Source: an uncultured bacterium (GTDB taxonomy: Bacteria > Bacillota > Clostridia > Lachnospirales > Lachnospiraceae). From it: DNA of 64,000 nt. Position numbers and translations under genes: made by a program. The stretch covers positions 60,039 through 124,038 of the forward strand of contig CANCXX010000006.1 of the NCBI GenBank assembly GCA_947381965.1. The letters run 5' to 3'. Below are positions 6,352-50,361 of this stretch, one piece after another. Below the pieces are notes generated by a model. It saw only the letters and a program-made list of their open reading frames with translations. It was not told where the DNA came from and ran no database searches. The stretch's first letter is position 1; every line of letters begins with the position of its first letter.

Positions 6352-6354
6352 ATT

Positions 6355-7275: not shown

Positions 7276-7324
7276 ATGCTTACCCCCCTTAGTGGTCTTT
7301 ATTTTTCCAAAATGCCGTTAAATC

Positions 7325-7352
7325 AGAGTGAAGGGCAAAAACCCTTCACTCT
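7325..7352 (-). other. intercistronic hairpin between binding protein and permease genes
   Basis: AGAGTGAAGGG and CCCTTCACTCT form a perfect 11-bp stem with a six-base loop, 22 bases after the binding-protein stop. No T-run follows on the minus strand. It is more likely an mRNA-stabilising or partially terminating structure that raises binding-protein over permease level than a full terminator. Confidence 0.6.
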
Positions 7353-7374
7353 TTAGATAAAAACATTCTTTTTC

Positions 7375-8844: not shown

Positions 8845-8864
8845 AACTTTATCCTCCTTTTTTT

Positions 8865-8901
8865 GAAACATTTCGCTGTTTCCTAATGTAAGTTCATTAT
8901 A
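8865..8901 (-). promoter_or_regulatory. promoter and candidate operator of the binding-protein gene
   Basis: A minus-strand -10 TATAAT lies at 8901-8896; the matching -35 is only T-rich. Just downstream, GAAACA (8865-8870) and TGTTTC (8877-8882) form an inverted repeat with a six-base centre, placed where a repressor would block transcription. The regulator is unknown. Confidence 0.4.
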
Positions 8902-8946
8902 CTTTTAGCGGGAAACCAAAAAAATTATCCATTTTTTAAAAAGGTG

Positions 8947-12066: not shown

Positions 12067-12089
12067 TATACAAATCTCCTTACCCAAAC

Positions 12090-14783
12090 CTATAATAGCT
12101 CCACTACAATCTCGTGCAGCAGTGTTTCATCCATTCCCTCAATTTCTTCCGCACTGGCCACCACATCTCCCTGCATGGCTGTCTTTTTTCCATCCAGATA
12201 TACTTCACCTATCCGGTAGCTGCCATGTTCCTTCCGGTTCTGATTTACATAGACAATCCTAAAGTGGCGCCGGTTAAACCAAAGACTTATCTCTGCCCTG
12301 TCTGCCTGGTCAAACTGCTGCGCTAAAAGACCAGGCTTTAAGCACAGGGATCCCATCCTGCCCTTTACACCGAACATTTCATGAATTACCGTCATCATAT
12401 ACCAGCTTGCGGCACCAGTCAGATAGTGATACATCCCCCTGCCTTTTCCGTCAAAATACTCTGGAATCCCAGGATAAATACGGCTCCTTTCAAAGTCAGA
12501 AGCCTGTGTATACAAAGTATGCAGCGCTCTGAAACCTTCTTTCGCATATCCCCTGCGGTAAAGGGCATTGGCATACATGGTGGTCATGTGGGAAAACACT
12601 GCACCATTTTCTTTTTGTCCATAAGCAAAACCGAACATTCTTCCCAAGTCCATCTTCACTTCCCCAAAATCAGTGTTCAGACGGTATCCGCCTGTTTCTT
12701 CTCTGTACAAATATTTGTCCGCACTGTGGACAATTTTTTTAATCTGCTCTTCCTTAGCCGTTTTGGACATAATGGTAAAAACCTGTCCGGTCAGCATCAT
12801 ACGTACCTGTCCATTACCGATTCCCTCTACCTGTCTGCCATGATTATCATAATAGCTGTTAAACCAGCCGTCTTCTCCATCTTCAACCCACTCTGTTTTC
12901 CGAATATGTTCCTTCAGCCAGTTTGCCTTGTTCTTCAGCCCTTCAATCACCATATTTACCGGCAGATAAACCTTTTTACCGGTAACGAAATGATGGCAGG
13001 ACTCACAGTAGGCGCCCAGAAGCGCCTGTTTTCTTTCCACACTTTCATAAAGCGTCTGTTCGTCTGCAAAAAGAGGTTCCATTTCTTCCGCCACTTCCAC
13101 ATACTTCATATTCCGTTCTTTTGCAAGATGTTCTATCAACTCTGACAGTGTATCCAGATTTCCTGCATATGCAGCGGTAAACGCCACGCTTTCTCCTCTG
13201 TCAGCCGCCAAATCAAGAGCGTCATTCCAGTCCGCTCCCCGGAGTCTCATGTGATTGTGCTCTCCCACCTCATAAAAAGCTGTTAAATTCTGTATCAAAA
13301 GATGCTCTAAAACACTCCCAAAGTAGTCTTTTCCCTGCCCGTCTTTCTGCAGCGGTTCATCCCCTTCCAGAAACTGTCCGTCTGTTCTGGTTCCACGACA
13401 GATTTGTTTGTCCTTAAAAAAAGTCCTTTCTTTTAAAAGCAGAGATAAATCTCCTGTCTGGTCAATGTAAAGAGCCGTAGTCATAAGAGGCCATAGCCCA
13501 TGATCCATCCATACTCTTGTAATATTATTCCGGTCGGCAATAAATTCTCCCTGTCTGGTTCCGATAATCGTGGCGTTACTGCCATCCATCCTCACACCGC
13601 CAAAATTGGCAAGGAGCATATCTTTGACTCCTTCCGGGTTCATAATAAGAAGCGCTAAGCAGTCCTGCCACAAGTCCCTCCATCCTCTTCCTCCTTTTCC
13701 ATAATCATGATGGGGCAGAAAAGAACATCCGTAAATTCTCCGAAGCACAGGCTGGAAGCTGACCCACGCCATAAAGTTGTCAAAGTTACTGTCCCCTGTC
13801 CTGTAACTTACATTCACCTTCCTTTCCCAGTACTTTCTTGTTTTTTCATAAGCCTTTCTGACCAACTCTTCATTTCCGTAAACAGAAAGGTATTTGGATA
13901 AGATTTCTTCCTCCTCACATATTCCTGACAGAAGAATATACACCGCCTCTTCTCCCGGCTTTAACTTTCTTTGCGGAAATTTCATGGCTCCCATGGCTTC
14001 ACACCCTTCCGCCCTGCTGCCTTCCTGCACCCCTGGCAGCCTTTGGTAAACAGCTCCGGGGCAGTCAAAGCTTCCCCCTTCTCCCAAAAAAGAATCCACC
14101 GTAGGGTAAAAGGCTTCCGGTTCCCCCCCTTCACCAGTAAGACCCATCACAAAATAAATCGTATGGTTCACCTGATGTCCTCTCTCATCAAAGGACAAAG
14201 TGGGCTTTACAATAACACTGTTTTTTTCAGTTTTTATACGGTGCAGCAGACTTGTTACATGCCTGTGGTCCCTTAGGTTATCCGCACTGCGTCCATAAAT
14301 GGGTATTGCCCCATAGCAGGTAATGTCTATATCCTCCTCCGAAATATTTTTAACAGATACCTGCATAATTTCCACATTATCCTGCTGTGGGATAAAGTGA
14401 AGTATTACGGAAGAAAGCCCATACCTGTCAGAAACCCTGGTTGTCCTATGCCACATAAATCCGGCTGTAATTTCACTTTCTTCAAAGCGGTTTTCCGCCC
14501 GGTCAAGCGCTGCCTGCGCACTTGCACCTGTGGCAGACCACACACCTTTTCCCTCTATATGGCACCAGAAATTGCGGGTGCTTTTGTTGTTATGAAGCTC
14601 TTCTGCACTGACCGGCTGCAGTAGAAAATGATTCTGGTCAGTCTTGGCATCCCCTCCAAGAAGCGGGCTCACCGCACTTTTCAGACCTTCTTCCCCAGCG
14701 ATTGGAAAGTACAGATAACTGGTTCTTTCAGGCTGTTTTAAACTAAAAGTCCCTTTATTATCCTTATACGTATATCCAGTCAT
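12090..14783 (-). CDS. GH94 glycoside phosphorylase (cellobiose phosphorylase family)
   Basis: Cytoplasmic enzyme of 897 residues. ATG 14783 is preceded by AAGGAG at seven bases; the longer frame to 14834 runs into a terminator hairpin and is rejected. Domains follow the family order: N-terminal beta-sandwich, (alpha/alpha)6 barrel with YGKGGRGWRDLWQD and the catalytic motif RGADWNDALD (ADWND at about residues 517-521), then a jelly-roll tail. The reaction is phosphorolysis of a beta-linked disaccharide or oligosaccharide to glucose 1-phosphate. Candidates are cellobiose, laminaribiose or another beta-glucobiose. It is first of the phosphorylase pair and upstream of the importer genes, so the two enzymes probably act on the same imported glycan. 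Confidence 0.85.
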   Translation of the reverse strand: MTGYTYKDNKGTFSLKQPERTSYLYFPIAGEEGLKSAVSPLLGGDAKTDQNHFLLQPVSAEELHNNKSTRNFWCHIEGKGVWSATGASAQAALDRAENRFEESEITAGFMWHRTTRVSDRYGLSSVILHFIPQQDNVEIMQVSVKNISEEDIDITCYGAIPIYGRSADNLRDHRHVTSLLHRIKTEKNSVIVKPTLSFDERGHQVNHTIYFVMGLTGEGGEPEAFYPTVDSFLGEGGSFDCPGAVYQRLPGVQEGSRAEGCEAMGAMKFPQRKLKPGEEAVYILLSGICEEEEILSKYLSVYGNEELVRKAYEKTRKYWERKVNVSYRTGDSNFDNFMAWVSFQPVLRRIYGCSFLPHHDYGKGGRGWRDLWQDCLALLIMNPEGVKDMLLANFGGVRMDGSNATIIGTRQGEFIADRNNITRVWMDHGLWPLMTTALYIDQTGDLSLLLKERTFFKDKQICRGTRTDGQFLEGDEPLQKDGQGKDYFGSVLEHLLIQNLTAFYEVGEHNHMRLRGADWNDALDLAADRGESVAFTAAYAGNLDTLSELIEHLAKERNMKYVEVAEEMEPLFADEQTLYESVERKQALLGAYCESCHHFVTGKKVYLPVNMVIEGLKNKANWLKEHIRKTEWVEDGEDGWFNSYYDNHGRQVEGIGNGQVRMMLTGQVFTIMSKTAKEEQIKKIVHSADKYLYREETGGYRLNTDFGEVKMDLGRMFGFAYGQKENGAVFSHMTTMYANALYRRGYAKEGFRALHTLYTQASDFERSRIYPGIPEYFDGKGRGMYHYLTGAASWYMMTVIHEMFGVKGRMGSLCLKPGLLAQQFDQADRAEISLWFNRRHFRIVYVNQNRKEHGSYRIGEVYLDGKKTAMQGDVVASAEEIEGMDETLLHEIVVELL

Positions 14784-14803
14784 AATCCATCTCCTTTTCA
14801 CGC

Positions 14804-14867
14804 AAAAAAACCTTTCTGTAACTGACAGATACAATATAGTATCAGCATATCAGTTTACAGAAAGGTT
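14804..14867 (-). terminator. strong Rho-independent terminator of the icd operon, just before the GH94 genes
   Basis: AACCTTTCTGTAACTGA (14809-14825) pairs with the segment 14850-14867, one base bulged, with a small inner GATAC/GTATC helix. On the minus strand a run of seven T follows at once (14810-14804). It lies 36 bases after the icd stop and only 21 bases before the GH94 start codon, so it could also act as an attenuator for the phosphorylase operon. Confidence 0.8.
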
Positions 14868-36055: not shown

Positions 36056-37498
36056 ATGCTTACATTTAAAAAAGCCCTGCCAGAGGAAACCGGTATTCCC
36101 AGTGGCAGCATGATTCAGTTTATAAAAAGACTGGAAACACATCAGATTCCTATGCACAGTCTGCTGCTTTTACATCATGACAAGCTGATTTTTGAAGGTT
36201 ATTATGCCCCCTTAAAGGCGGAAAGTCTTCACCGGATGTTTTCCATCAGTAAAAGCTTTACCGCTGTGGGCATTGGACTGCTGGCTGAAGAAGGGAAACT
36301 TTGTCTTGATGATAGGATTGCTTCATATTTTCCTGAAAAGCTGCCTGAAAAAGTGCATCCCTGGGTTGCCTCCATGACCATAAGGGACATGCTTATGATG
36401 CGTTCCTGTCATGCTGCCACCACATACAAAGCCAATCCTGGTAAAGACTGGATAGAAAGTTTTTTTTCCACACCTCCCACACACCCTGCCGGCAGGATAT
36501 TTCACTATGATACCTCTTCCGCACACACCCTTTGCGCCCTTGTTGAAAAGTTATCCGGTATGTCTCTTTTAGATTATATAAAGAAAAAGCTGGATATCCT
36601 TGGATTTTCGGAAAGCTCCTATATGCTCAAAGACCCTTTTGGTGTTTCCATGGGAGGCTCCGGCCTGGTTGCCACTTCTCTTGATCTGATGAAGTTTGGC
36701 TATTTTATTGCCCATAGAGGATACGTATGCCACAGACAGCTTCTTTCGCCCTCTTTTATTGAAATGGCCATTTCCTGTTTAAGCGCCAACAGTGTTACAG
36801 CTCCCATTCCTGAAGAAGCCCATGGCTATGGCATGCAGTTCTGGCGTAATGGGAAAAATGGATTCACATGCTATGGAATGGGCGGCCAGCTTATTATCGT
36901 TCTTCCTGAATATGACTTAATCTGTGTTACTACTGCGGACACACAGGGAATTGGTGGCGGAAACCAGCAAATTTATGATGCCTTGTACGAAGAAATCCTT
37001 CCTAACATAGGTCAAAAAACCTTTTTGTGTCCAAAAAACGCCCAAAAGCTAAATGAAACAATATCCACCCTGAAAATTAAACCCCTTACCAGTTATCTTG
37101 CTCCAGAAGCAGCCTGTCATATAAATGGCCAGACATTTTATGTACAAAATGAAAATACGAAATTTGCAAGTTTAACCTTACACTTAAAAAAAATTCCCGA
37201 CAGCCAGACATCTATCGGGAACTTAAGCTTTATTTATTCAAAAAAAGAATATAGTTTTTCATTTGGTATAGGATTTATGGAAACAGGTTTCTTTCCCATA
37301 TACAATTTATACTATGCCGCCAGCGGCGCCTGGCTTACAGATGGCACACTGCATATCAAGGTACACATAATTGACTCCTATGTAGGAAGTATCCATTTCC
37401 AATTTTCATTTGGACATAATGACCTTGTTTTATTTATGCGGAAACAGGAAGAAAGCCTTTTTCAGGAATTTACCGGACATCTTTACTGCACAATTTGA
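36056..37498 (+). CDS. serine hydrolase of the beta-lactamase/PBP4* family
   Basis: 480-residue protein without a signal peptide, so probably cytoplasmic. The catalytic SxxK is S63-ISK66 (MFSISKSFT). The second-motif tyrosine is in FHYDTSSAH, and the third motif is GMGGQ in place of HxG/KTG. These are class C-like esterase or D-peptidase folds; the substrate is not predictable. The last ~150 residues form a separate beta-rich tail. AGGAG lies nine bases before the ATG. Its 3' end overlaps the convergent diguanylate cyclase gene by 16 bases, with no terminator between them. Confidence 0.85.
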   Translation: MLTFKKALPEETGIPSGSMIQFIKRLETHQIPMHSLLLLHHDKLIFEGYYAPLKAESLHRMFSISKSFTAVGIGLLAEEGKLCLDDRIASYFPEKLPEKVHPWVASMTIRDMLMMRSCHAATTYKANPGKDWIESFFSTPPTHPAGRIFHYDTSSAHTLCALVEKLSGMSLLDYIKKKLDILGFSESSYMLKDPFGVSMGGSGLVATSLDLMKFGYFIAHRGYVCHRQLLSPSFIEMAISCLSANSVTAPIPEEAHGYGMQFWRNGKNGFTCYGMGGQLIIVLPEYDLICVTTADTQGIGGGNQQIYDALYEEILPNIGQKTFLCPKNAQKLNETISTLKIKPLTSYLAPEAACHINGQTFYVQNENTKFASLTLHLKKIPDSQTSIGNLSFIYSKKEYSFSFGIGFMETGFFPIYNLYYAASGAWLTDGTLHIKVHIIDSYVGSIHFQFSFGHNDLVLFMRKQEESLFQEFTGHLYCTI

Positions 37499-38772
37499 TT
37501 CCGCCCGCTGTTTTTTCCATAATATAACCGTGTATCGGCATTTTTGATGATATGGTTGATTTTTTCTTCATTCCCTTCAACTATGCCGAAAGTCATGGTA
37601 ATACTGATATCTTTCTCCTCCTGGTAGCTGATTTTAGTACTCCGTATGCTTTCCATCAGTTGCTCCAAATGCTGCACTGCCCGGTTTAAACGGCAACGCT
37701 CGTAAACCAAAAGAAATTCTTCGCCGCCCCATCTGGCGACAAATCCCTTTCCTTCCATATGCTCTTTTAATTGCTGTGCCACCTCCCGAAGCACCACATC
37801 CCCGCATTCATGACCATATGTATCATTCACACGCTTAAAGTAATCAATATCACCTATCACAACACAATAGGGAACCTGTGACTTTACATAATTATATTGT
37901 GTTTTTAATAACAGCTTTTCCCCATTTCGTCTATTATTAAGCCCAGTCAAAATATCCTGCTCCACCAATCCCCGGAGAGACTTCTGCATTCTTATTACAT
38001 GCTTCCCCATCTCTCCAATCTCATCGCTCCGTTTTAAGACAGATGAATCAAGTTCAGCATGAAGCTCTCCGCCCGAAATTTTGCCAAGGAAAGTTTCTAT
38101 CTCCCGGATTGCACCAACCATTTTTTTGGATACGCTTATTGTAAACCACCCTGCCACAATTATTGCAAAAAAAGCCAGCCACAAAATAGGCTTTACCACA
38201 TCCCGAACAAGTCCCTCCACATCAGACGAAGATTTTCCTGCAAAAATCATTCCCACACAGTCGCCATCAGAATTTTTTAAAGGAGCATAATATGCAAAGT
38301 AATAATCTGATTCATTAATAGATACCCGTGAATAAAATGCTTCTTCCTTTCCTTCCAGCACTTCCTTCGTCACCTCGTCACTTGCCAGAGTGCCATTCAT
38401 ACGGTGCCCCCGGTTATCCATAATGGTAGTTACTGCCCGGACATTCTGGCAGAAGAAAGTCACATCTACACCTGTTTTCCGCTTTACTTCATCTATAACA
38501 CCATAATGGCCGTCTATCTGGTATTCGCCTTTAAACAGATATTCCTTTCCGTCTTTTTGTATAATATGATAATCGCCTTCATACAGATTGTCGTATACTA
38601 ACAGTACAATACTGCATAAGTCTTTCAGCCCCTGCTTTACTTCTTCATTCACGGAATCTGCAAATCTATTTGTACTGAATATGGTTATCAATAATGCAAG
38701 CAGCAAAATTGGCAGAATCGCGATTTTAAGCAGTGACCAGTACAAGCTGTTACGCTTAATGTGATCCATCAT
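37483..38772 (-). CDS. membrane diguanylate cyclase (sCache-HAMP-GGDEF)
   Basis: 429 residues from ATG 38772 (GGAGG five bases upstream; the next ATG at 38769 is also possible). A first membrane segment at about residues 12-34 and a second at about 200-222 enclose a single-Cache sensor domain (VTFFCQNVRAVTTI, FYSRVSINESDYYFAYYAPL). HAMP then leads to a GGDEF domain with an intact active site (RWGGEEF) and the upstream DIDYFKRVNDTYGHECGD loop split across the substrate site. It makes c-di-GMP from two GTP. It is the last gene of the hybrid transporter-like unit, 34 bases past the preceding lipoprotein, so its sensor may report on that system. Confidence 0.92.
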   Translation of the reverse strand: MMDHIKRNSLYWSLLKIAILPILLLALLITIFSTNRFADSVNEEVKQGLKDLCSIVLLVYDNLYEGDYHIIQKDGKEYLFKGEYQIDGHYGVIDEVKRKTGVDVTFFCQNVRAVTTIMDNRGHRMNGTLASDEVTKEVLEGKEEAFYSRVSINESDYYFAYYAPLKNSDGDCVGMIFAGKSSSDVEGLVRDVVKPILWLAFFAIIVAGWFTISVSKKMVGAIREIETFLGKISGGELHAELDSSVLKRSDEIGEMGKHVIRMQKSLRGLVEQDILTGLNNRRNGEKLLLKTQYNYVKSQVPYCVVIGDIDYFKRVNDTYGHECGDVVLREVAQQLKEHMEGKGFVARWGGEEFLLVYERCRLNRAVQHLEQLMESIRSTKISYQEEKDISITMTFGIVEGNEEKINHIIKNADTRLYYGKNSGRNQIVQ

Positions 38773-38805
38773 GTACGCCTCCTGCAAATAGGATTATCTT
38801 ACACT

Positions 38806-41118
38806 TTACCTATTTTCATTCACATAAATCTGTACTCTGCTCTGAATAATGCCTGCCACATCCCTGACACTCTTCTGTCCGGCAAAATAGGGAGCTGCTT
38901 CTTCATTAATAATATTAAATAAAGCCTCGTCAAATTTATATACCTGTGTAAAACTGTAAAGCTGTTCCTTTAGTTCTTCTGTCTCCTGGGCTGTCATTGG
39001 AGGGATAACGATTTCCACACCGCTTATATAATAAGTGTCATCATACTCTACCTTTTCATTGTTCTCATCCATATAATATGGCTTTTCCATTGCCCTTGCT
39101 GCCAGTTTATCCAAACATTTAATGCTTATGGGAAGGCCATAAATATTTTCCTGATACTCATCCTGCAAAAACACTCTTAAAAACTCCCACGCGCCTTCTT
39201 TGCATTTTGATTTTGATGAAAGGGCAAGTTGCTGTCCCGGCTGGATTACTGAACCCTCCCCGTTAAAGGATGGGAATCCTATCATAGTAACTTTTTCCCC
39301 AAAGGTACCCTTTTCCGTGTAACTATATCCTCTGAAATCACCTATACTTGTGGCAAGTGCAAGAACCTTTCCCTCCCGCCACATACTTTCATAATTATTC
39401 CAGTATTCATCTTCTATCCATATATCGTTGTTTATCTCTTCCGGGAAAGTGCTGATAAACTCCAGCATCTGAATAAATTCATCGGAATTAAAATTACAGC
39501 TTCCTTTTTCCCAGTCAATAAATTGATTTCCCGACATGGTAATACATCGTTCCATCATTTCATTTCGCGTTACATCTGCCAGAAACTGTGTTCCTTCCGG
39601 CTTTGATGCCAGCAAGTCCTTCACTTCCTGCACGGTCCACCCGCGCTCATTCCCCACATCAGCCGTTTTAGCCATAATGGTAAGTAATGTATAAGATGGC
39701 ACAAGAGTATAAAGCTTTCCGTCCACAGAAAAGGCTTCTATAATATTAGGCATAAACCCATTAATGTCCAACGCGCTGTCTTGCTCTATATAGGGTTTTA
39801 AATCTTCAAATAGTTTTTTATTAATATAACTGTCAACAGGCATTGCATCGTCCAGAAGAATAATATCTGGTATCTTTCCGGATACAATGTCTGTATTTAA
39901 TTGCTTAACACCGGCTTTATAGTCATCTTCCGTACTATAAAGAGAAGCATAGTCCAAAATTGAGATCCTGTATGCTTCATTTGATTTATTAAACTTTACC
40001 GCTTCCCGGCGCACATTCCAGTCGGTATATGCCATAGCAAGGGTAATCTCCTGTCTTTCTTTCACTTCCTCCGGAGGAACCTTCGTAAACTTTGCAAGTA
40101 CCCTTTCCCCGTCTTCCGGATCATCATACATTGCCAGTAATTCTTTGTCAGTAATTCCCATTACCTGATAGAGATTATAAAAATCAAAATCCGAATCAAT
40201 ATAGCTCATTAGCTGGGTTTTATCTGCATCCCCCAGATTATAGCCATATAGCCCATACATATTAACCAGATATAAATCATATCCTACCCCCGGATAAAAA
40301 GAATACTCATAAGAAACACCAGAAATTGTATATTCTTCCCCAAAGGTACCTTTTTCCAAATCCACTGTGGCAAGAGAAATTCCCGTGTCACCATAAATAA
40401 CTGCTATTGTTTTGCCATCAATCGTATTAATGTAATCTGCTCTTTCCAGCTCCTCACGTTCTGAAAATACTTCCAATAAATTTCCATCCATGTCAAACTT
40501 CAGCAAATTTCCATAAATAATCAAGTAAATTGCTTTTCCCTGGTTGAAAATAAAATTATTAATATAAAGATATCCATTTTCTTCCTGTAGTTTTTTTATT
40601 TCTGATATTTCATTCAAGTATACAGAATAAGCTTCCTCCCCCTGCATATTCATCTTTGTGAGATAATAATCCTCAACATATTCTTCTGTGCCTTCTCCAT
40701 CAATTGATTCCTCTGTCTCTGATCCTGTACCACTTATCTGACGGGACACACTCTTTATACCATAAAGATTTCCCTCGCTGTCCATATTAATCCAGTTAAA
40801 ACTGGTATCTGATTCGAAAGCAATACTATAATTTTTTTCTGTGGCCCCCTCTTTGCCTATTTTATAAAGAAGAACCGTGTTATTTCCTTCTTCATTCCAG
40901 CTGTAACCGTAGCCATATATATCATCTCCAACCCGGAACAGGCGGTTTATCTGTTCATCCACCCCAAGCCCCAGATCAATCTCTGATGCCTTATATACAT
41001 AATCCTTTGACGCAATATTGCCTGCTTTTTCACTTCCTTCCTCCTTCTTGTCTCCACATCCTGAAAGACACAGGAATGTAAGCAAACATATTGCCAAAAC
41101 AATTCGAAACTTTTTCAT
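38806..41118 (-). CDS. two-part solute-binding lipoprotein B (propeller-like N-half)
   Basis: 770 residues from ATG 41118 (GAGGGGG upstream; the frame to 41136 begins at a TTG without a site). The signal peptide ends in the lipobox LCLSGC. Residues ~60-370 carry repeated beta-strand units (DSEGNLYGIKS, LYGYNLGD) that look like a beta-propeller. From about residue 380 a family 1 solute-binding domain follows (ITLAMAYTDWNVRREAVKFN, VIQPGQQLALSSKSKCKEGA). The end IQSRVQIYVNENR is nearly identical to that of the paralogue at 46325-48598. Such length is about twice that of a normal binding protein. The ligand is unknown. Confidence 0.85.
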   Translation of the reverse strand: MKKFRIVLAICLLTFLCLSGCGDKKEEGSEKAGNIASKDYVYKASEIDLGLGVDEQINRLFRVGDDIYGYGYSWNEEGNNTVLLYKIGKEGATEKNYSIAFESDTSFNWINMDSEGNLYGIKSVSRQISGTGSETEESIDGEGTEEYVEDYYLTKMNMQGEEAYSVYLNEISEIKKLQEENGYLYINNFIFNQGKAIYLIIYGNLLKFDMDGNLLEVFSEREELERADYINTIDGKTIAVIYGDTGISLATVDLEKGTFGEEYTISGVSYEYSFYPGVGYDLYLVNMYGLYGYNLGDADKTQLMSYIDSDFDFYNLYQVMGITDKELLAMYDDPEDGERVLAKFTKVPPEEVKERQEITLAMAYTDWNVRREAVKFNKSNEAYRISILDYASLYSTEDDYKAGVKQLNTDIVSGKIPDIILLDDAMPVDSYINKKLFEDLKPYIEQDSALDINGFMPNIIEAFSVDGKLYTLVPSYTLLTIMAKTADVGNERGWTVQEVKDLLASKPEGTQFLADVTRNEMMERCITMSGNQFIDWEKGSCNFNSDEFIQMLEFISTFPEEINNDIWIEDEYWNNYESMWREGKVLALATSIGDFRGYSYTEKGTFGEKVTMIGFPSFNGEGSVIQPGQQLALSSKSKCKEGAWEFLRVFLQDEYQENIYGLPISIKCLDKLAARAMEKPYYMDENNEKVEYDDTYYISGVEIVIPPMTAQETEELKEQLYSFTQVYKFDEALFNIINEEAAPYFAGQKSVRDVAGIIQSRVQIYVNENR

Positions 41119-41187
41119 ACAACCCCCTCGCTCCAATTAAGACAGCAAATCCATACCTAAAGCGCTGTTTTCCTATTTACACCTTTT

Positions 41188-42288
41188 TTAAAAATGCTCC
41201 CACTTATCTTTCTCCCCTTGTATTTTCCGCACCACTTTATCTTTACTGTCTAATATAAAATTACCCACGTCTTTCCACGTAAAACTTCTGTTTCTCCATT
41301 TTGATACCAGAAAAGCGGTGATAATTATTACAGGAACCATTAAAAACAAAAACTGGAATAAGAATACCATTGCTTTCACATCTTCCCACCCCCGCGCTAT
41401 ATTTTCCCAATAGGGAAATTTCACGGCTGCATTCTGCATGGATCTGGTTCCATAATTAAGAATAACAGGAATTAAGGATTCAGGCAAGTAACGGGAAGAA
41501 TTTTCTACAACAATCATATGATTTTCTTCCACTCCCAGCTTTTCCTTCACACAGTTATAGACAAAACCTTTTACCGGATTAGGTGCAGTCACTTCATAGA
41601 CACTGATGCCATCACTTTCCCCATATGCAGAGAGACTTTCATGGGACATATAGACAATTGTCTTGTCAAGTCCGGCATTTTCTGCAAACCTGCCCTCCTG
41701 TCTTTTTACCACACCAGACACATAATGAGGAACTCCCCCAATCATCAAGCTCATTCCTGCAATATCACTGGAGCCAAACAGCTGCCATGCAGCATCTTCA
41801 TCCAAAACAACAAAGTCTTTCATCAGGTCATTCCCTGAAAAATATCCGCCTGATACCAGCTGCAGTGGGTGAAACAGAAAAAAATCACCGCCGATGCCAA
41901 CTGCTGAAGCCTCAAGTTTTCCCTTCTCGCTCACCAATGTAGCTGTGCCAAGAGAACTGTAGGCATCAATAAACAGTCTTTTGCCGTTTTCTCCGCCCTG
42001 TTCATCTGCAGGCAAAACCTCCAGCAGGCTTTGTTCCAGCTGTCTTTCAAAGCTTATAATTTTAAATTCGTCCATTTCCACATTTTCCGCCAGAAAGCAG
42101 CTTATCTGGGCACTGCCACCCTCCGGGTCCCAGCGGGAAGCCGCCTGCTGATCAATTAATCCTTTTACCATGTGACTGGACCATATCGTTAATATAATAA
42201 ATATGATAAGGGACAAAATTGTGATAAGAGAAAACACTACCTGCTTTATTGTTAACCCATGTATCCAATCCCTGATCCTCACAGCCAT
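41188..42288 (-). CDS. MacB-like extracytoplasmic-domain membrane protein without FtsX core
   Basis: 366 residues, AGGAGG seven bases before the ATG. One membrane segment at about residues 17-40, then a ~260-residue extracytoplasmic region that resembles the MacB periplasmic core domain (VSGGYFSGNDLMKDFVVLDE, AWQLFGSSDIAGMSLMIGG, HYVSGVVKRQEGRFAE), then one segment at about 305-330 and a short basic tail. Normal MacB/FtsX proteins have four membrane segments and a partner ATPase; both are missing. It lies between the HlyD-type adaptor and binding lipoprotein B, which hints at a trans-envelope complex. Function unknown. Confidence 0.75.
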   Translation of the reverse strand: MAVRIRDWIHGLTIKQVVFSLITILSLIIFIILTIWSSHMVKGLIDQQAASRWDPEGGSAQISCFLAENVEMDEFKIISFERQLEQSLLEVLPADEQGGENGKRLFIDAYSSLGTATLVSEKGKLEASAVGIGGDFFLFHPLQLVSGGYFSGNDLMKDFVVLDEDAAWQLFGSSDIAGMSLMIGGVPHYVSGVVKRQEGRFAENAGLDKTIVYMSHESLSAYGESDGISVYEVTAPNPVKGFVYNCVKEKLGVEENHMIVVENSSRYLPESLIPVILNYGTRSMQNAAVKFPYWENIARGWEDVKAMVFLFQFLFLMVPVIIITAFLVSKWRNRSFTWKDVGNFILDSKDKVVRKIQGEKDKWEHF

Positions 42289-42329
42289 AGATTTCCTCCT
42301 TTCTTCCCCTATCCTAAATACTGTTTCCT

Positions 42330-44372
42330 TTACGACTCATTCAGCCTGACCTGTTTTCCTGCTTCCACGGGTTTTGTGGATGTGGTGATTACATATTCAT
42401 ATCCATAAAGACCTGCTGATATGGCTGTATTGTTATCATCTGAAGCCAGAACCTCCACGTCTACCCTTGTGGCAATATAACGGGTACGGAGAGGACTACT
42501 TTTAGACTCCACTATCAGTATAAACTTGCCATTATTATCCTCCCTAACGGCACTGTTAGGAACCACAAACTCATATTCACTGCTCCGCTGTCCAATAGAA
42601 ATGTTAAGCGCCTGTCCTTCCTGAATGCTGGACCCGCTTACATTAAATTCCAGCAGCTTATTCTTTCCCGGATTGTTGGGATCCGGCTTTATAGCTGACA
42701 AGATTGCCTGTACATCATCATAATACCAGGAATTTTGCAATTCCGCCGTATCACCCACCTGTACTTTTTTCGCCTGCTCATTGGTAACAGAGATAGACAT
42801 GGTATAACCTTTTCCCTCTACCTGCAAAACTGCCGCCTCTTTTTCCGGCTCTGTAGTTTCTCCTGCGGTATAAGCAAGGGAGGTTACTGTTCCAGCCACA
42901 GGCGCCGTAATGGTGGAGCCAACAGATTTTTCTTTCAGTTTTGCTATTTCTGCCCTTTTATCAGCTATATCCCTGTTTGCTTTGGATAAATCAAGCTCCG
43001 CGTTAATGTCTTCTGATAATTCTGTCTGCTCTGTTTTTAACAGATCATAGACAGCCTTGGCATTGTCAAGGGCTGCCTGGGCGTTGGCAATTCGGTTTTG
43101 ATAAACCACCGATGCCTGTTTATTGGCATTATTTTTATCTGTAAGGTTCCTGTCTGCCTGTTCCAGTTTTGCCTTGGCATCCTTCACGCTGTCCCCCGGC
43201 GTGTAAACCATTGCATTTATTTCCGCTAAACTCGACTGAAGGTCCTGTAATTCCTTTTCTCTTCTTGCAAGCTCCGACTCGTTGCTTGCATGGGTATTTA
43301 ACTGAGAAGACGCTTCATTTACCAGTCTTACCGCTACCTCGTACTGACTTACAGCAGCGTCATAGTCACGCAAAAGGAAACTAAAATCTTCCTGTTTGTT
43401 GTTTTCCTCTATCCATTTTTTTAAATCATTTATATTGTCACCTATATTTGGATTTCCATTTTCTGGTTTATTGACTGCAGATTGAATTGCCTTCAATTTA
43501 TTTTGTATTTCGTCTTTCGCCGCTTCTCTTTGCTGAATATATACATCAATCCCCCCTGCTACATAATCTATTCCTCCCTGTCCGTCGTCTTTACCTGTTA
43601 CTGAGCCGGTAATACTCTCCGCCTTATCTATTAACGTTTTCAAATCAGTAATCTGCTTTTGTTTTTCTGTAATTTGGTAATTTATATCTGCCACCATTTC
43701 CGTCTTCATTCTGTTAAAGGCGGCCTCTGCATTTGCTTCCTCTGTCTCCGCATTTGAAAGAGCAGATGAAGCCAGTGACTTCTCATTTTCCTCCGGAATG
43801 GTATTTACACTGGCATTGTTTTCATTAACCGTGCTCTGCAATGTCAGACTGTTCACTACATCCTGACATTCCTTAACCCGCGCTTCCGCTTCATTCAGAC
43901 GCGCCTGCATATCTGTCACCATGGCCTGATAGGAACCAAAATTATCTGTTCTGCCGCTTGCCACCTTTTCGATAATTTCCGGAGATACAGTACTCCCAAA
44001 GAGACCTTTCATATAATTAAGCTCCAACTCCTCCAGTTCATCCTGCGCTTTTTTTAATTCTTCGCTGTCTGTATCTTCAAGGTAATACAAGACCTGGTCC
44101 TTTTCCACTGTGTCACCCTGCTTTACCGCCACCGATGCAATCACCCGTGACTCTTTAACCATAACCTTATAAGGGTCCGTAGCCTCCACATTTCCGGTTC
44201 CCCTTACCTTGGCTGTAATAGAGCCGCTCTGCACATATTGTGTTGCCACTTCAGGCAATGAATAATTCATAATTGTATTTGAAAAAAAGGTAAGTAACAG
44301 CATAATCGTTAAAAACACAATTGCCGCGTTCTTTACCCACTCTCTCTTCTTTTTCCCTTCTTTTTCATTCAT
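42330..44372 (-). CDS. HlyD-type membrane fusion protein with long coiled coil
   Basis: 680 residues from ATG 44372; a GTG at 44381 is an alternative. One N-terminal membrane anchor (about residues 12-32) is followed by a first beta-barrel/lipoyl half (SGSITAKVRGTGNVEATDPY). A very long helical hairpin spans about residues 100-465, rich in Ala, Glu, Gln and Lys. The second lipoyl half (GSTITAPVAGTVTSLAY) and adaptor beta domains complete it. Such adaptors normally work with ABC exporters such as MacB. Here it is encoded in one unit with importer-type permeases, which is unusual. The hairpin is much longer than in typical Gram-positive adaptors. Confidence 0.88.
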   Translation of the reverse strand: MNEKEGKKKREWVKNAAIVFLTIMLLLTFFSNTIMNYSLPEVATQYVQSGSITAKVRGTGNVEATDPYKVMVKESRVIASVAVKQGDTVEKDQVLYYLEDTDSEELKKAQDELEELELNYMKGLFGSTVSPEIIEKVASGRTDNFGSYQAMVTDMQARLNEAEARVKECQDVVNSLTLQSTVNENNASVNTIPEENEKSLASSALSNAETEEANAEAAFNRMKTEMVADINYQITEKQKQITDLKTLIDKAESITGSVTGKDDGQGGIDYVAGGIDVYIQQREAAKDEIQNKLKAIQSAVNKPENGNPNIGDNINDLKKWIEENNKQEDFSFLLRDYDAAVSQYEVAVRLVNEASSQLNTHASNESELARREKELQDLQSSLAEINAMVYTPGDSVKDAKAKLEQADRNLTDKNNANKQASVVYQNRIANAQAALDNAKAVYDLLKTEQTELSEDINAELDLSKANRDIADKRAEIAKLKEKSVGSTITAPVAGTVTSLAYTAGETTEPEKEAAVLQVEGKGYTMSISVTNEQAKKVQVGDTAELQNSWYYDDVQAILSAIKPDPNNPGKNKLLEFNVSGSSIQEGQALNISIGQRSSEYEFVVPNSAVREDNNGKFILIVESKSSPLRTRYIATRVDVEVLASDDNNTAISAGLYGYEYVITTSTKPVEAGKQVRLNES

Positions 44373-44396
44373 ACTCTCCACCCTTGCCTTTCCATT

Positions 44397-45368
44397 TTAT
44401 CCTTTAATACCACCCTGATAAGTAATTCCCTCTACCAGATAATCTTCCCCATACAAAAATACCAGTATCGGCGGCACCATATAAATCGTAGCAACCGCAA
44501 ACGCCAGTCCAATCTCCCCCGCATTGATTTTGGAAAGAAATACGGAAAGGGGATGTTTTTCCTGGTCCGCCAGCAAAATAAGAGGCTGTTCCACCATATT
44601 CCAGTAATCAATAAATATTAAAATTGCAATAGAACACATAGCTCCTTTACATAGAGGCATACATATGCGCCTGAATATCTGCCATTCCCCTGCCCCGTCA
44701 ATCTGCGCTGCCTCCATAACCGCAACCGGAATCCTCCGCATATATTTTGTAAGCAGATAAACTGCAAAAGGTGAAAAAATTCCTGGCAGCCATATTGCCC
44801 AATTGGTGTCATATATGTGAAGCCACTGGGATACCAAATAGTTGGGTACCAGCGTTACCTGATAAGGCATCAGCATCAATATAATATATACAAAAAAAAT
44901 AATTTCCTTGATCCGTCCCCGGAATCTGGTAAACCCAAAGGAGGCTCCTGCCGCCACAAGAAGCTGAAAAGCTACAATTGGAACAACAAGTATCACTGAA
45001 TTCCAAAACTTAAATAAATACTCCGGGCTTTTAAGCAAAACCGTAAGATACTGGCTAAAAGATACCATATCAGGAATAAACTTTAAGTTCACCTTCTCTG
45101 AAATATATACTTTCCCGCCTGTATCTGAAGTGGCAAACACTTGTCCATAATTGGCTGAAATCTCTGATGCAGACATAAAGGAATTCGTTACTGTAAGTAT
45201 AATAGGTAAAAGAAAAAGAACTGCAAAACAAGCCGCAAACATGGTTGCCAAGGAAATCCTGACAAGTTCCCGTGCATGCTTTATCTTCTTTTTTCTTTTA
45301 ACGCTTTTACTCCATTTTTCCAAATCTGCGTTATTATCTGTCTGTTTTTTGTCAAGGTGTATTATCAT
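44397..45368 (-). CDS. carbohydrate-type ABC permease (MalG type)
   Basis: 323 residues with six hydrophobic segments. The EAA loop reads VMEAAQIDGAGEWQIFRRICMP. A long N-terminal cytoplasmic part is basic, and there is an unusually large first extracytoplasmic loop of about 55 residues (NYGQVFATSDTGGKVYISEK) compared with standard MalG proteins. The ATG overlaps the partner's stop (ATGA), so the two are translationally coupled. Follows the MalF-type gene; no ATPase in the unit. Confidence 0.88.
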   Translation of the reverse strand: MIIHLDKKQTDNNADLEKWSKSVKRKKKIKHARELVRISLATMFAACFAVLFLLPIILTVTNSFMSASEISANYGQVFATSDTGGKVYISEKVNLKFIPDMVSFSQYLTVLLKSPEYLFKFWNSVILVVPIVAFQLLVAAGASFGFTRFRGRIKEIIFFVYIILMLMPYQVTLVPNYLVSQWLHIYDTNWAIWLPGIFSPFAVYLLTKYMRRIPVAVMEAAQIDGAGEWQIFRRICMPLCKGAMCSIAILIFIDYWNMVEQPLILLADQEKHPLSVFLSKINAGEIGLAFAVATIYMVPPILVFLYGEDYLVEGITYQGGIKG

Positions 45369-46312
45369 CCTTCCACATCCTTTCCAAAATAGTTCTCTGT
45401 CAGGAACAGAATGCCTATGATAATTACCATCACAATCGCCATCATAATTGCTGCCGCTGACATTTTCTGATAATCCAGTCTGCTAAAGGTATTGTTCATG
45501 AAATGCTGCAGCATATACATTGTATCATAAGGATAATCCCCTTTTAACAGATAGATTTCCCTGAAAACCTTAAAAGAATTTATTAAGGACATAATTGTCA
45601 CAAACAGAATTGTCGAGGACATATATCTAATTTTAATATGCAGAAAAATCTGAAAGGGTGTAGCGCTCTCCAATACTGCTACTTCCAGTATATCCTTAGG
45701 GATACTGCTTAAAGCGGACATAAATAAAATCATATTATAACCAAGATTTTTCCACAAAAAAAGTATTACAATTACAACCTGCGCATAAGATGAATTCAGC
45801 CAGTCTACCTTATCTAGATGAAAAAATCCAAGAACTTCATTCATCATACCATTATAATGAAACAATACCTGCCAGATTAACACCACAGATGCAATGGGTA
45901 CCATCATTGGACTTAAGAAAAAAGTTCGGAACTGGCTCTTATAGGGAATATTGCTTTCCAGCATCATTGCAAGAAACAGGGATAATACTACAGCAAGAGG
46001 AACTGCAACAGCAGAAAATGTCATCGTATTTTTGGCTGCCTGCTGAAATGCCGAATTTTGAAATACCATTACAAAATTTTCAAAAAAAACAAACTGATGG
46101 CTGATGGGATTATCAACAACAGAATAATAAATCACAATCATAAAAGGAAGCACGAAAAACAGTAGTACGCCAAGGGCGCTGGGAAACAGATACCCTGTGG
46201 ATATCAGTTTCCCCTTGCGCGACCTTCGGGTGCCACTGCCTGATTTTTTTTCAATCTTTAATGGTTTAAGCTCCAGGCTGTCTCTTTTTCCCTTTTTCCC
46301 AGGAAAATACAT
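45365..46312 (-). CDS. carbohydrate-type ABC permease (MalF type)
   Basis: 315 residues, AAGGAG seven bases before the ATG, with a strongly basic N-terminal 38 residues, then six hydrophobic segments. The EAA loop is diverged: ILEVAVLESATPFQIFLHIK, where the usual EAA...DGA has become EVA...ESA. That may mean an altered ATPase contact. It lies 13 bases after binding lipoprotein A. Confidence 0.85.
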   Translation of the reverse strand: MYFPGKKGKRDSLELKPLKIEKKSGSGTRRSRKGKLISTGYLFPSALGVLLFFVLPFMIVIYYSVVDNPISHQFVFFENFVMVFQNSAFQQAAKNTMTFSAVAVPLAVVLSLFLAMMLESNIPYKSQFRTFFLSPMMVPIASVVLIWQVLFHYNGMMNEVLGFFHLDKVDWLNSSYAQVVIVILFLWKNLGYNMILFMSALSSIPKDILEVAVLESATPFQIFLHIKIRYMSSTILFVTIMSLINSFKVFREIYLLKGDYPYDTMYMLQHFMNNTFSRLDYQKMSAAAIMMAIVMVIIIGILFLTENYFGKDVEG

Positions 46313-46324
46313 TTTTATCTCCTT

Positions 46325-48598
46325 TTATCTGTTCTCATTCACATAAATCTGAATTCTATTCTGGATAATTGCTGCCGTATCAGCCGCCGTCTTCTGACCC
46401 TTAAAGAAAGGTTCTGACTCCTCCGTAATAATATTAGTCAACTGTTCATCGTTGACATTGCTGGAAGTTTTTTCAGCAGATGCAATAAGCGCTTTCACTG
46501 CGTCAATCTCTTCCTGGGTAGCTGCCATAATTTCCATCTCAAAATCATCCCATCCCCAGGTCGTCTTTGCCTGTTCTACCTTCTCTCCATTCTCGTCCTC
46601 ATAATATTCCGGTGTCATATCCTTTTCAAACTGCTTCTCAAGAGTTTCCTTCCTTATAGGAAAGCCCCAGTTACCATGTTCTCTAATCAGGCTGTCCTGA
46701 TATTCCTCTGAAATCATGGTTTTCATAAACTCCCAAGCGCCATCTTTATTTTCTGATTTTGAAGACAGCCCCATACATCCGCCATTTGGCTGAACCAGGT
46801 TTCCTTTTCTTTCACTGTTAGGATAACCTACAAAAGCAACTTTTTCTCCAAATAATCCTGTAAGCATCTGAAATTCCTGAACAGAGGAAATGCTATTTTG
46901 CATCAGAAGTATTTTATCTGACTGCAGCATGGAATACATTCCTTCCCTCTCCCCATCATAATCAACTTTCTCCGGGAATTTTGCGGCAAATTCAAGGATT
47001 CTTATAAACCCTTCATCATTAAAGAAGCATTCTCCAGTTTCCCAATTAATAAATTCATCTATATTATTATAAATACAATAATAGAATATACTGTTTCTGT
47101 TTCCATACTGGAATACGTTTTCCGGGTTCTTATCCTCCACAAAATCAAGCATTTCCGTCAGTGTCCATCCGTTAATATCACCTGTCAGCGATGATTTTGC
47201 CAAGGTGGAACTGACAGTAAACTGGGAAATAAGCCCATACAGTTTTCCATCTGTTTCATATGCCTTTAAAATATTTTCAAGATAATCCTCCTTGTTTATA
47301 CCGCTTTTTTCCATATAAGGATATAAATCCTCCAATATACCCTTACTTGCATATTGATTAATGTCCAAAGCAGATAAATCAATAATATCTGGACAATTTC
47401 CTGTTGTTAAATCCGCATTCATCTGGGAAAGTCCCGTCTGATAATCGTCTGTGCCATATTCTTTGACCGTTACCCGGTATTCCCCGTTTGTTTTATTAAA
47501 ATCAATGATATTTCTTTTGACACCGCTGTCAATCCACAGCGCGCCATAAACTATTTCTTTTTTCTCTGCAACTTCGCTGGCATTTTTCCGGTTTAAGGTT
47601 ACAAGCTCATAGTTATTGCTTCCCCTTGTCTCTGAAGAATTGCTGTAGCTTCTGGTAAGCGCCCATATCCGTCCGTCTGAAAGTTCTCCCATGTAGTTAA
47701 TATCTTCACTGTTAATATCAACATCCAGCCATTTGTAAAGATCCTCCAGGGTTCCTGATTCCACGTCAAACAGGGAAACCTGGTCGGAATTACCAACCAA
47801 AAGACTTTTACTGTTTCCAGTATAATACTGTCTGTTGCCGTATCCACTTCCTAAACCTTCCACCACGTCTCCAAGTTTTTTGGTCGTAAGGTCTACCTTC
47901 TTAAGCTCCAAGCCTGTCTCTCCATAAGAAGAAGCAAATACTTCCCCTTCTTTGGAAGTTACCATACTGTTAATCCAGTTATCCACTTTAATATCAAAAA
48001 GCTTATTCAGTTCCTTATCCGTCACATAAATATTGCTGTCCCCATCACTAAAATAAAAATTGCCATCTTTATCCACACAAAAATATTGTACACGGGCATA
48101 TTCTGAATTTCCCATAAGTTCTGTAATATCCCTTGTACTTATCACAGAACCGTCATTGGCTGAAACCTCCCAAAGCTCTATAGAAGAACTATCTGATATT
48201 ACATCTCCAGCTTCATTGGTTTCATACAGATATCTGCTGACTGCCATCAAAAGATTGCCGTCCGTTCCCATTGCCATGCCTGAAACGCTGCTGTTTTCGT
48301 CAAGCTCCATTGGAAGCTGCTCTGATTTGTTTTCAAGCATATTGTACTTATACAGAATTTCCTGACTGTTTTCATTCTCTTCATCCCAGGCTACCGCATT
48401 GATAAATACATTATCCCCTGCCGCTGTAGCCGCATATATGTAATCACAGTTTAGATCCATTTCATGATATTCCGGAACATAAACAAATTCTTTTGTTTCT
48501 CCCTCTTCCTGTGGTTCTTTTTTGCCGCAGCCCGAAAGCGCCATCAGCACAGCTCCAAGAAGAGCCACCGCTAGTATCGTTTTCTTATTCTTTTTCAT
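46325..48598 (-). CDS. two-part solute-binding lipoprotein A (propeller-like N-half)
   Basis: 757 residues from ATG 48598; an AGG lies six bases upstream, and the longer frame to 48667 reads through the promoter. The lipobox is LMALSGC. Residues ~60-370 show propeller-like repeats (GTDGNLLMAVSRYLYE, DKDGNFYFSDGDSNIYV, KEGEVFASSYGETGLELKKV, SDGRIWALTRSYS). The C-half is a family 1 binding domain (LVQPNGGCMGLSSKSENKDGAWEF). It ends IQNRIQIYVNENR, matching lipoprotein B. First gene of the unit. The two proteins look like an old duplication within one operon. Confidence 0.85.
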   Translation of the reverse strand: MKKNKKTILAVALLGAVLMALSGCGKKEPQEEGETKEFVYVPEYHEMDLNCDYIYAATAAGDNVFINAVAWDEENENSQEILYKYNMLENKSEQLPMELDENSSVSGMAMGTDGNLLMAVSRYLYETNEAGDVISDSSSIELWEVSANDGSVISTRDITELMGNSEYARVQYFCVDKDGNFYFSDGDSNIYVTDKELNKLFDIKVDNWINSMVTSKEGEVFASSYGETGLELKKVDLTTKKLGDVVEGLGSGYGNRQYYTGNSKSLLVGNSDQVSLFDVESGTLEDLYKWLDVDINSEDINYMGELSDGRIWALTRSYSNSSETRGSNNYELVTLNRKNASEVAEKKEIVYGALWIDSGVKRNIIDFNKTNGEYRVTVKEYGTDDYQTGLSQMNADLTTGNCPDIIDLSALDINQYASKGILEDLYPYMEKSGINKEDYLENILKAYETDGKLYGLISQFTVSSTLAKSSLTGDINGWTLTEMLDFVEDKNPENVFQYGNRNSIFYYCIYNNIDEFINWETGECFFNDEGFIRILEFAAKFPEKVDYDGEREGMYSMLQSDKILLMQNSISSVQEFQMLTGLFGEKVAFVGYPNSERKGNLVQPNGGCMGLSSKSENKDGAWEFMKTMISEEYQDSLIREHGNWGFPIRKETLEKQFEKDMTPEYYEDENGEKVEQAKTTWGWDDFEMEIMAATQEEIDAVKALIASAEKTSSNVNDEQLTNIITEESEPFFKGQKTAADTAAIIQNRIQIYVNENR

Positions 48599-48638
48599 AA
48601 TATACCTCATAATTTCTAAGTTTGCTTTAACACTACAA

Positions 48639-48667
48639 ACTATAGCATACAATAAAAAGGGAAACAA
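48639..48667 (-). promoter_or_regulatory. promoter of the seven-gene hybrid unit
   Basis: On the minus strand, -35 TTGTTT (48667-48662), a 17-base spacer and -10 TATAGT (48644-48639), giving a leader of about 34 bases before ATG 48598. Confidence 0.5.
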
Positions 48668-48707: not shown

Positions 48708-50072
48708 TTAGTTTTTAAAACTGTGTATCGGCGCCGGAATCCTGCCTCCCCGGTTTACGAATGCTTCACAGGAAAAAGAATTTACCGGCATAATAGGGGC
48801 ACGTCCCAAAAGTCCGCCAAACTCTACGCTCTCTCCCACCCCTTTACCTGCTACCGGAATAATACGTACTGCCGTGGTCTTCTGGTTTACCATGCCTATC
48901 GCCATTTCGTCCGCTATAATCCCGGAAATTGTGGACGCCTTCGTATCTCCCGGTATGGCAATCATGTCAAGCCCTACGGAACACACACATGTCATTGCCT
49001 CCAGTTTTTCCAGTGTAAGCGCTCCAGCTTCCACTGCATCAATCATCCCCTGGTCCTCACTTACCGGAATAAAGGCGCCGCTAAGTCCCCCCACATAGGA
49101 AGAAGCCATAACGCCTCCCTTTTTTACCTGGTCGTTTAAAAGGGCAAGCGCTGCCGTTGTCCCTGGCGCACCTGCATATTCCAGGCCAATCTCACACAAA
49201 ATATCCGCCACACTGTCGCCAATCGCCGGCGTAGGTGCAAGGGATAAATCAACAATGCCAAAGGGAACTCCCAGCCTTGCAGAGGCTTCCTGTGCCACCA
49301 GCTGACCTACTCTGGTCACTTTAAACGCCGTTTTCTTTATAGTCTCGCAGAGCACTTCAAAATTTTCACCCCGGACACGGCTTAAGGCATTTTTTACCAC
49401 TCCCGGACCGCTTACGCCTACATTAATCACTTTATCCGCCTCTGTTACACCATGGAAGGCGCCTGCCATAAAGGGATTGTCATCAGGTGCATTACAAAAA
49501 ACCACCAGTTTGGCGCAACCCAGTGAATCCTGGTCTTTGCTTTCTTCGGCTGTCTGTTTTACAATTTCTCCCATCAGCTTTACTGCATCCATATTAATTC
49601 CCGTTCTGGTGGAACCCAAATTGACAGAACTGCACACACGCTCGGTGGAAGATAAGGCAAGAGGAATTGACCGGATTAAAAGCTCGTCAGCAGCGGTCAT
49701 CCCTTTGGATACAAGGGCAGAATAACCTCCAATAAAATTCACCCCTACCTGTTTTGCCGCCCGGTCAAGGGTTTGGGCAATTGAAACAAAGTCCTCTTTT
49801 GTTTTACAGGCCGCTCCGCCAATTTGTGCAATAGGGGTTACGGAAATTCTTTTGTTAACAATCGGAACGCCAAATTCTCTGGAAATTTCTTCTCCCGTCT
49901 TTACAAGATCTTTTGCCGCTTCAAATATTTTGTTGAATATCTTTTCGTTTAATCTTGTAAGGTCTGAATCAATGCAGTCAAGAAGACTGATGCCCAGAGT
50001 AATTGTGCGGACGTCCAGATTTTCTTTGGTAATCATATCATTGGTTTCAACTACTTCAAATAAATTAATCAA
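48708..50072 (-). CDS. UPF0210 / PFL-family protein (DUF711)
   Basis: 454 residues, read from TTG 50072, which has AGGAGGGG eight bases upstream. This start gives [27 protein letters not shown], the usual N-terminus of the family and its usual length; the frame to 50147 overlaps the ACT gene. The fold is related to glycyl-radical pyruvate formate-lyases, but no radical glycine motif is obvious and the biochemical role is unknown. It is always paired with a small ACT protein, as here (16-base gap), which suggests amino-acid-responsive control. Confidence 0.9.
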
Positions 50073-50088
50073 TGTAATCCCCTCCTGC

Positions 50089-50361
50089 TTATATCCGGTG
50101 CATTTTGTCAAAAATTTCTTCCTTCTGACATTTAATATCCACACCAATCTCTCCGCCTAAAGCATGAAGCTCCTGTGCCATTTCTCCAAAATGCTTCTCC
50201 ATTCCATTGGTATCTACAATCATCATCATATTAAAGTATCCTTGTACAATGGTCTGGGAAATATCCAGAATATTGATTTTATTTTCTGCAAGGTATGTAC
50301 ATACTTTTGCTATAATCCCTACCGTATCTTTTCCTACTACTGTAATTATTGTCTTATTCAT
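50089..50361 (-). CDS. UPF0237 ACT-domain protein
   Basis: 90 residues from ATG 50361 (GGAGG six bases upstream). It is a single ACT domain, beta-alpha-beta-beta-alpha-beta: [20 protein letters not shown] and [18 protein letters not shown]. Such domains bind amino acids and regulate partners; the partner is the UPF0210 protein encoded next. The longer frame to 50388 has no ribosome site. Confidence 0.92.

Follow-up and report, generated by a model that had tools for sequence, protein, structure and literature searches.

A conserved gene unit joining CUT1 import permeases to an HlyD/MacA-type adaptor and a MacB-type domain protein in Lachnospiraceae and other bacteria

HlyD/MacA-type adaptors are familiar components of export systems. 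In a Gram-positive MacAB-type pump, Spr0693-0694-0695, the adaptor Spr0693 is reported to form a nanotube of six subunits that docks on the transporter (PMC5768738), and multitask ATPases energise several sugar importers in Firmicutes (PMC7658222). Here we describe a unit of seven genes in which import permeases and export-type parts are joined. It consists of seven open reading frames (ORFs) and lies on the minus strand (37483-48598) of a 64,000-nucleotide stretch from an uncultured Lachnospiraceae bacterium (assembly GCA_947381965.1, contig CANCXX010000006.1, positions 60,039 to 124,038), hereafter the window. We find the unit to be genuine and conserved, and would class it among the CUT1 importers, as a so far unnamed form; no description of such a unit was found in the open-licence literature, judged by titles and the beginnings of abstracts. 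We consider it probable that the unit is a CUT1 importer, most likely for oligosaccharides, equipped with a motor-less extracytoplasmic module derived from MacA/MacB and driven by a shared ATPase; it may form a trans-envelope assembly. The genes and the site beyond them are as follows (TM, transmembrane segment; PCD, periplasmic core domain).

46325-48598, minus strand: lipoprotein A, solute-binding (SBP_bac_8/SBP_bac_1), extended at the N terminus by an additional half of some 340 residues (ORF, Pfam, start check)
45365-46312, minus strand: MalF-type CUT1 permease, BPD_transp_1 (domain search)
44397-45368, minus strand: MalG-type CUT1 permease, BPD_transp_1, with a consensus EAA loop (domain search)
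42330-44372, minus strand: HlyD/MacA-type adaptor, HlyD_3/Biotin_lipoyl_2 (domain search, model)
41188-42288, minus strand: MacB PCD protein, TM1-PCD-TM2, MacB_PCD (domain search, model)
38806-41118, minus strand: lipoprotein B, solute-binding, a paralogue of A (ORF, domain search)
37483-38772, minus strand: sCache_3_3 and GGDEF protein, accessory rather than core (domain search)
37191-37224, minus strand: terminator-like hairpin of 13 pairs with a T run (consensus match only)

These genes, their families, their order and their common strand are those given by the first-pass annotation of the window, which had also correctly noted the ATGA overlap (at the malF/malG junction) and the absence of an ATPase gene from the unit. 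It had further proposed that the order be looked for in related genomes. We searched 299 genomes of the family with the PCD protein as the query; 32 matched, and the places in the other 31 were inspected. The order malF-malG-hlyD-PCD was unbroken in all 27 assessable loci, in addition to the window. Outside this count are L073 and L074, which are ATPase-adaptor-MacB loci, and L049 and L055, where the contig edge falls within hlyD and only the part from there on is present; L186, on another contig of the L049 genome, ends in hlyD and is probably the rest of the L049 unit. The PCD protein of L075 is short (194 aa). Strong matches to the HlyD profile (E < 1e-90) were obtained in 29 of the 299 genomes, and these are the very genomes that match PCD strongly; 11 weaker matches represent a second unit type. 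The second type is mostly sbp-malF-malG-hlyD (sbp, solute-binding protein gene) and then a PCD-like protein of greater divergence, in which there are one to five hydrophobic segments, the exceptions being L185, which is without a PCD-like protein, and L183, which is reordered. Fourteen further loci, taken from records with public names, include 12 in the core order (in L043 and L044 with PCD and SBP in one ORF), one, L041, cut at the contig end, and L033, which is described below. Reordered units keep the parts together, as hlyD-PCD-malF-malG (L183, L224, L225, L310) or hlyD-PCD-sbp-malF-malG (L226). The import permeases and the export-type adaptor parts form one conserved unit, as had been supposed, and with the core order recurring in this way the arrangement is not a chance one. 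A small lipoprotein-like gene stands between the binding-protein gene and hlyD at L183:2484-2999 and L310:11187-11822, in units ordered hlyD-PCD-malF-malG-ATPase. Genes outside the unit families occur at L033:1-921 (in the place of malG) and L185:10116-11318 (in the place of PCD); by eye, they may be of one ATPase-type kind.

The genome of the window holds two more units on contigs C49 and C19 (L257:7244-12781 and L258:7115-12660), both ordered sbp-malF-malG-hlyD and both without a PCD match. Beyond the family, the class-level search gave 54 matches among 391 genomes, and the 18 top-listed extra-family places were inspected (G619 was left out because of a broken frame). malG, hlyD and PCD were side by side in 17 of the 18, L113 beginning inside hlyD; many of the weaker matches are likely to be ordinary MacB. 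A second profile matched 106 of the 391 genomes, and the three genes were present in all eight further places inspected (the six new ones above 100 bits, and G474 and G637, chosen from the lower matches; frames are broken in L228 and L230). At the phylum level, the adaptor profile matched four of 299 genomes at 1e-30, and both matches outside the class (L221, L222) are units. Five of 22 genomes of family f24 matched the L130 PCD protein, giving four units (L128-L130, L228) and weak matches in G449. No copies were found in a plasmid collection by tblastn with the PCD protein. For the unit genes of the window compared with five relatives (the GGDEF gene with one of the five), the nonsynonymous rate (dN) was 0.09-0.43 and the synonymous rate (dS) was above 1.2 or saturated; this suggests purifying selection, roughly, since dS is near saturation.

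The linkage was also approached from the permease side, by a search with MalG alone that was independent of the adaptor. Of 200 Lachnospiraceae genomes, 58 matched, with 72 places in all, and an adaptor match stood beside 66 of the 70 assessable places (6 of the 66 weak). Thirty-two places were already known, all with the adaptor. The other 40 were inspected: 28 have an adaptor match above 100 bits, 6 have a weak one (33-64 bits; L288, L294, L299, L305, L318 and L320), 4 have none and 2 are cut off by the contig end (L295, L307). In the MalG tree (128 rows; quick search, LG+G4 model, midpoint root), one branch with a support of 100 in the Shimodaira-Hasegawa-like approximate likelihood ratio test (SH-aLRT) comprised 100 rows, of which 94 were linked to an adaptor, 4 unlinked and 2 of unknown state, and all 28 rows outside it were unlinked. 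With L294 (a weak match of 42 bits) counted as linked, which is the better count, the branch has 95 linked and 3 unlinked rows. The rows were divided likewise in an 88-row tree under a mixture model. Note that control rows were called unlinked when no adaptor was present within 1.5 kb (this genome, where 26 MalG-type permeases were matched at E 1e-8) or 3.5 kb (other genomes), and that two supposed controls from this genome which fell inside the branch are the units L257 and L258 without a PCD gene.

As for the energy source, the first-pass annotation had supposed that a shared ATPase drives the permeases, and this is likely. A UgpC-class ATPase is encoded elsewhere in this genome, at G000:C10 (504.9 bits; UgpC cut-off, 432); it is 56% identical to the L130 ATPase, the next three in the genome being 43-47% identical, and in the 12 kb around it no permease was matched by the unit profiles. 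A motif scan for ATPases, covering 5 kb around each of the 113 mapped units, was positive at 17 of them. In seven units the ATPase is UgpC-like and lies inside (L129, L130, L183, L221, L222, L228, which is contig-cut, and L310; 317-467 bits to that of this genome). OB_MalK and TOBE_2 domains were seen in those of L130, L183, L221, L222 and L310, and all five pass the UgpC cut-off (432.3-504.1). The weightiest case is L221, whose PCD protein is of the two-TM type found in the window. Another UgpC-like ATPase lies 4.5 kb from the unit of L323. The sole MacB-type ATPase near the 113 units is that of L048, part of a complete classical set downstream, and the remaining ones are of other kinds. The unit of the window would probably use the UgpC-class ATPase outside it.

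Both lipoproteins are above the SBP_bac_8 cut-off (77.6 and 59.8 bits). The matches of both binding halves in the PDB included CbpC (7x0o; E 9e-17 and 5.5e-17) and Lmo0181, with YesO in addition for A; CbpC and Lmo0181 bind oligosaccharides. The N-terminal half of lipoprotein A is possibly a beta-propeller, its SGL/Reg_prop matches being below the cut-off. Among 212 neighbouring genes listed, 29 were chosen for Pfam, and glycoside hydrolase (GH) or phosphorylase domains were found at seven units: GH9-CBM3 (L118, L122), GH5 (L051, L124), GH10 (L179) and GH94 (L119 twice, L123). Because of the PDB matches of the binding proteins and these nearby genes, oligosaccharide uptake is likely, and the substrates may be beta-glucans or xylans in some lineages.

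The last gene of the unit introduces the question of signalling. Its GGDEF domain (133.4 bits, with a GGEEF motif) makes the sCache_3_3-GGDEF protein a probable diguanylate cyclase. A close sCache-GGDEF relative (> 300 bits) accompanies the unit in only 6 of the 46 loci checked besides the window (L033, L035, L037, L043, L044 and L062). The mixed unit, its order and the likely shared ATPase are supported from the first-pass interpretation; cyclic di-GMP as the reporter of the state of the system is not supported as a core feature. Homologues of one histidine kinase-response regulator pair of the HisKA/OmpR type (HisKA/HATPase_c and Response_reg/Trans_reg_C) are near 31 of the 46 second-type loci in the MalG tree (weak at L257; 41 and 101 bits), and 7 of 68 other units have weaker ones nearby; the pair is often divergent to the binding-protein gene, and in L257 and L258 it lies divergently upstream. 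Because a GGDEF gene or such a pair is near units, sensing is plausible as a second role, with partners that differ by lineage. That the unit is a sensing device more than a transporter, its binding proteins, permease and adaptor detecting an envelope or sugar cue and passing it to the GGDEF protein in the window or to the kinase-regulator pair in relatives, we regard as unlikely. These linked genes speak for it, as does the coupling loop of MalF, which is non-consensus in the type of the window; on the other side, the EAA loop of MalG is consensus-like (in the 69 rows listed), which together with the seven units containing a UgpC-like ATPase argues for active transport, and most units of the window's type are without a linked signalling gene by the profiles used.

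The adaptor has a single TM at the N terminus together with lipoyl, barrel and membrane-proximal parts, and its helical region is very long (about residues 105-488 of the ORF of 683 aa starting at 44381). Its HlyD/MacA fold was found both with Pfam and in the model, with TIGR01730 at 69.1 bits, under the cut-off of 94.9. The model (predicted local distance difference test score, 83.2; predicted template modelling score, 0.34) has the order of parts of membrane-fusion proteins, with BesA, AcrA and MacA as structural matches; the latter score is low, so that the arrangement of the parts is not to be trusted. Majority identity over 28 rows was 0.78 in the TM part, 0.71 in the membrane-proximal part and 0.31 in the helical region, a pattern that fits an adaptor which docks at the membrane and has a variable outward reach. 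The model of the PCD protein matches the TM1-PCD-TM2 part of MacB, aligning to 5xu1_M and 5gko_A. The protein stops after TM2, and has neither the FtsX permease part nor an ATPase domain; none of 20 unit PCD proteins examined had an FtsX match, as against 68.6 bits for L131. FtsX-type helices after the PCD and a MacB/LolD-type ATPase with the unit are two defining traits of MacAB, and since neither is present in the unit of the window, it is not a MacAB pump, although parts are shared. In L043:9986-13267 and L044:10004-13285, the PCD protein and lipoprotein B are in one ORF of 1093 aa, which carries internal ATGs (some behind a purine-rich sequence) and a lipobox. We set this aside as proof of contact, as these may be two overlapping genes in the same frame.

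It is very unlikely that the unit is an exporter in which MalFG or another partner pushes a product outward through an adaptor tube in the manner of MacAB. Its appeal comes from the HlyD/MacA fold and the MacB-type PCD, which belong to export systems in the best structural matches, and from the 17 of 113 mapped units with no binding-protein gene nearby; against these, a binding-protein match is near the other 96, the permeases are of CUT1, the ATPases of the seven units are UgpC-like and not MacB/LolD-like, and the 20 PCD proteins examined are without an FtsX match, as stated above. An ATPase-bearing MacB encoded elsewhere, which according to the first-pass annotation might account for the adaptor, was also looked for, and a locus of the classical ATPase-HlyD-MacB kind, containing FtsX and an ATPase of the MacB/LolD class, exists on contig C3 of the window's genome (L131:7251-10902). 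It is useful as a control, but has its own adaptor, and we rejected it as the main explanation. That one transcript serves two separate machines, namely a CUT1 importer and, besides it, an adaptor-PCD pair working with an ATPase-FtsX transporter encoded elsewhere, is hardly credible in spite of the L131 locus, the classical set directly after the unit in L048 and the MacB fold of the PCD, because the L131 and L048 sets each have their own adaptor, the five adaptors with an adjacent ATPase group together in the HlyD tree apart from the unit adaptors (SH-aLRT 94), and the link to MalFG is kept in reordered units and is seen at two loci from other classes. Note that these five rows are the classical controls of the HlyD tree, and that L033, L055, L113 and L226 are unit loci.

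Under the preferred reading, a CUT1 importer with a motor-less module, the lipoproteins would bind the solute and pass it to the MalF/MalG channel, and a UgpC/MsmX-class ATPase common to importers (here probably that of G000:C10) would hydrolyse ATP. The adaptor would be held by its one TM and dock through its conserved membrane-proximal part; gene linkage suggests that it is seated on the permease and has its role there. Together with the two-TM PCD protein, in which the docking face of MacB would be kept and the transporter lost, it would make a motor-less scaffold on the permease, and the long helical region would extend into the cell wall and position or guide the large binding proteins or the substrate. 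The GGDEF protein would be an optional partner. The physical complex, a hairpin tube, the direction of transport and the substrate are what we infer for this system. In a bolder form, which is tentative and somewhat unlikely, the unit would be the import counterpart of tripartite pumps: an adaptor tube on a CUT1 channel and a motor-less MacB-like platform would carry or guide oligosaccharides inward across the thick Gram-positive wall, the tube length being fitted to the large binding proteins and the system reporting, in many lineages, to a dedicated kinase or cyclase.

Several observations weigh against the preferred reading. The MalF coupling loop of the window's type, EVA..LESA....IK.RY, departs from the consensus (EVA; S for G; RY for LP), so that coupling to the ATPase may be altered; the departure is itself conserved in this type. 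Twelve of the 113 mapped units are without a PCD match (L186 and L288 are at contig ends), and the 17 without a binding-protein match include six of the nine from family f45 and some others that are contig-cut. In L033, a locus from a metagenome assembly, hlyD-PCD-sbpB is present and malFG is replaced by an unrelated gene. Four of the MalG places have no adaptor match (L303, L321, L326, L327), and five of the six weak adaptor matches are without a Pfam HlyD match, L320 alone having one. Most of the neighbouring genes put to Pfam are housekeeping genes or are without an assigned role. Finally, adaptor length was correlated with binding-protein size (Spearman 0.36, p 6e-4, 88 loci; 19 loci were left out beforehand, and L043 with its fused ORF was entered as 730 by hand), but there were only 2-3 independent contrasts, and the relation is suggestive only.

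With regard to the borders of the unit, the first-pass annotation had started lipoprotein A at 48667 and assumed one promoter. The likely start is instead the ATG at 48598 (other likely ATG starts: hlyD, 44372; lipoprotein B, 41118; GGDEF gene, 38772), and a consensus scan gave no minus-strand site in the 109-bp gap that separates lipoprotein A from the upstream gene, the strongest minus-strand match (47532-47505) being within the lipoprotein A gene. The terminator-like hairpin is about 260 bp beyond the last gene; 13 such sites are in the region against 12.0 ± 3.8 expected, which is no excess. Upstream of the unit is a DUF711 gene (48708-50147), found in the same place in many close relatives, probably by plain synteny. 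On the other side is a convergent beta-lactamase-fold gene (36056-37498; 200.6 bits to the model of 3-succinylated cholic acid synthase, cut-off 800), and in L043 relatives of this gene and of a chemoreceptor come after the unit, as in the window. An ordinary CUT1 set (two permeases and a binding protein) with a GH94-like protein lies at 5524-14834, together with a protein of 1046 aa that has no Pfam match at 1e-6.

If the importer reading is true, a CUT1 branch tied to an adaptor would show that such adaptors work with importers too, and would account for numerous gut-bacterial genes labelled 'efflux adaptor' or 'MacB-like'. A further question that becomes testable is how large lipoproteins and oligosaccharides reach the permease across the Gram-positive wall.

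Among the described systems, the unit resembles the CUT1 importers with a multitask ATPase (MsmX/MsmK) in its SBP_bac_1/8 proteins, its MalF/MalG permeases and, mostly, the lack of its own ATPase, with a UgpC-class one elsewhere in the genome. Unlike these, its operon includes an adaptor of the HlyD type and, in most cases, a MacB-PCD protein, its MalG forms a branch of its own, and the EAA loop of MalF is non-consensus in the type of the window. The HlyD/MacA-like adaptor and the MacB PCD are shared with Gram-positive MacAB-type pumps (Spr0693-0694-0695; YknWXYZ), from which the unit differs in having neither an FtsX match nor a MacB/LolD-type ATPase, and in having binding lipoproteins and CUT1 permeases instead, to which some relatives add a UgpC-like ATPase. 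Compared with adaptors of the resistance-nodulation-division and type I secretion kinds (AcrA, MacA, HlyD, BesA), the adaptor of the unit has a long and poorly conserved helical region and is linked to import permeases.

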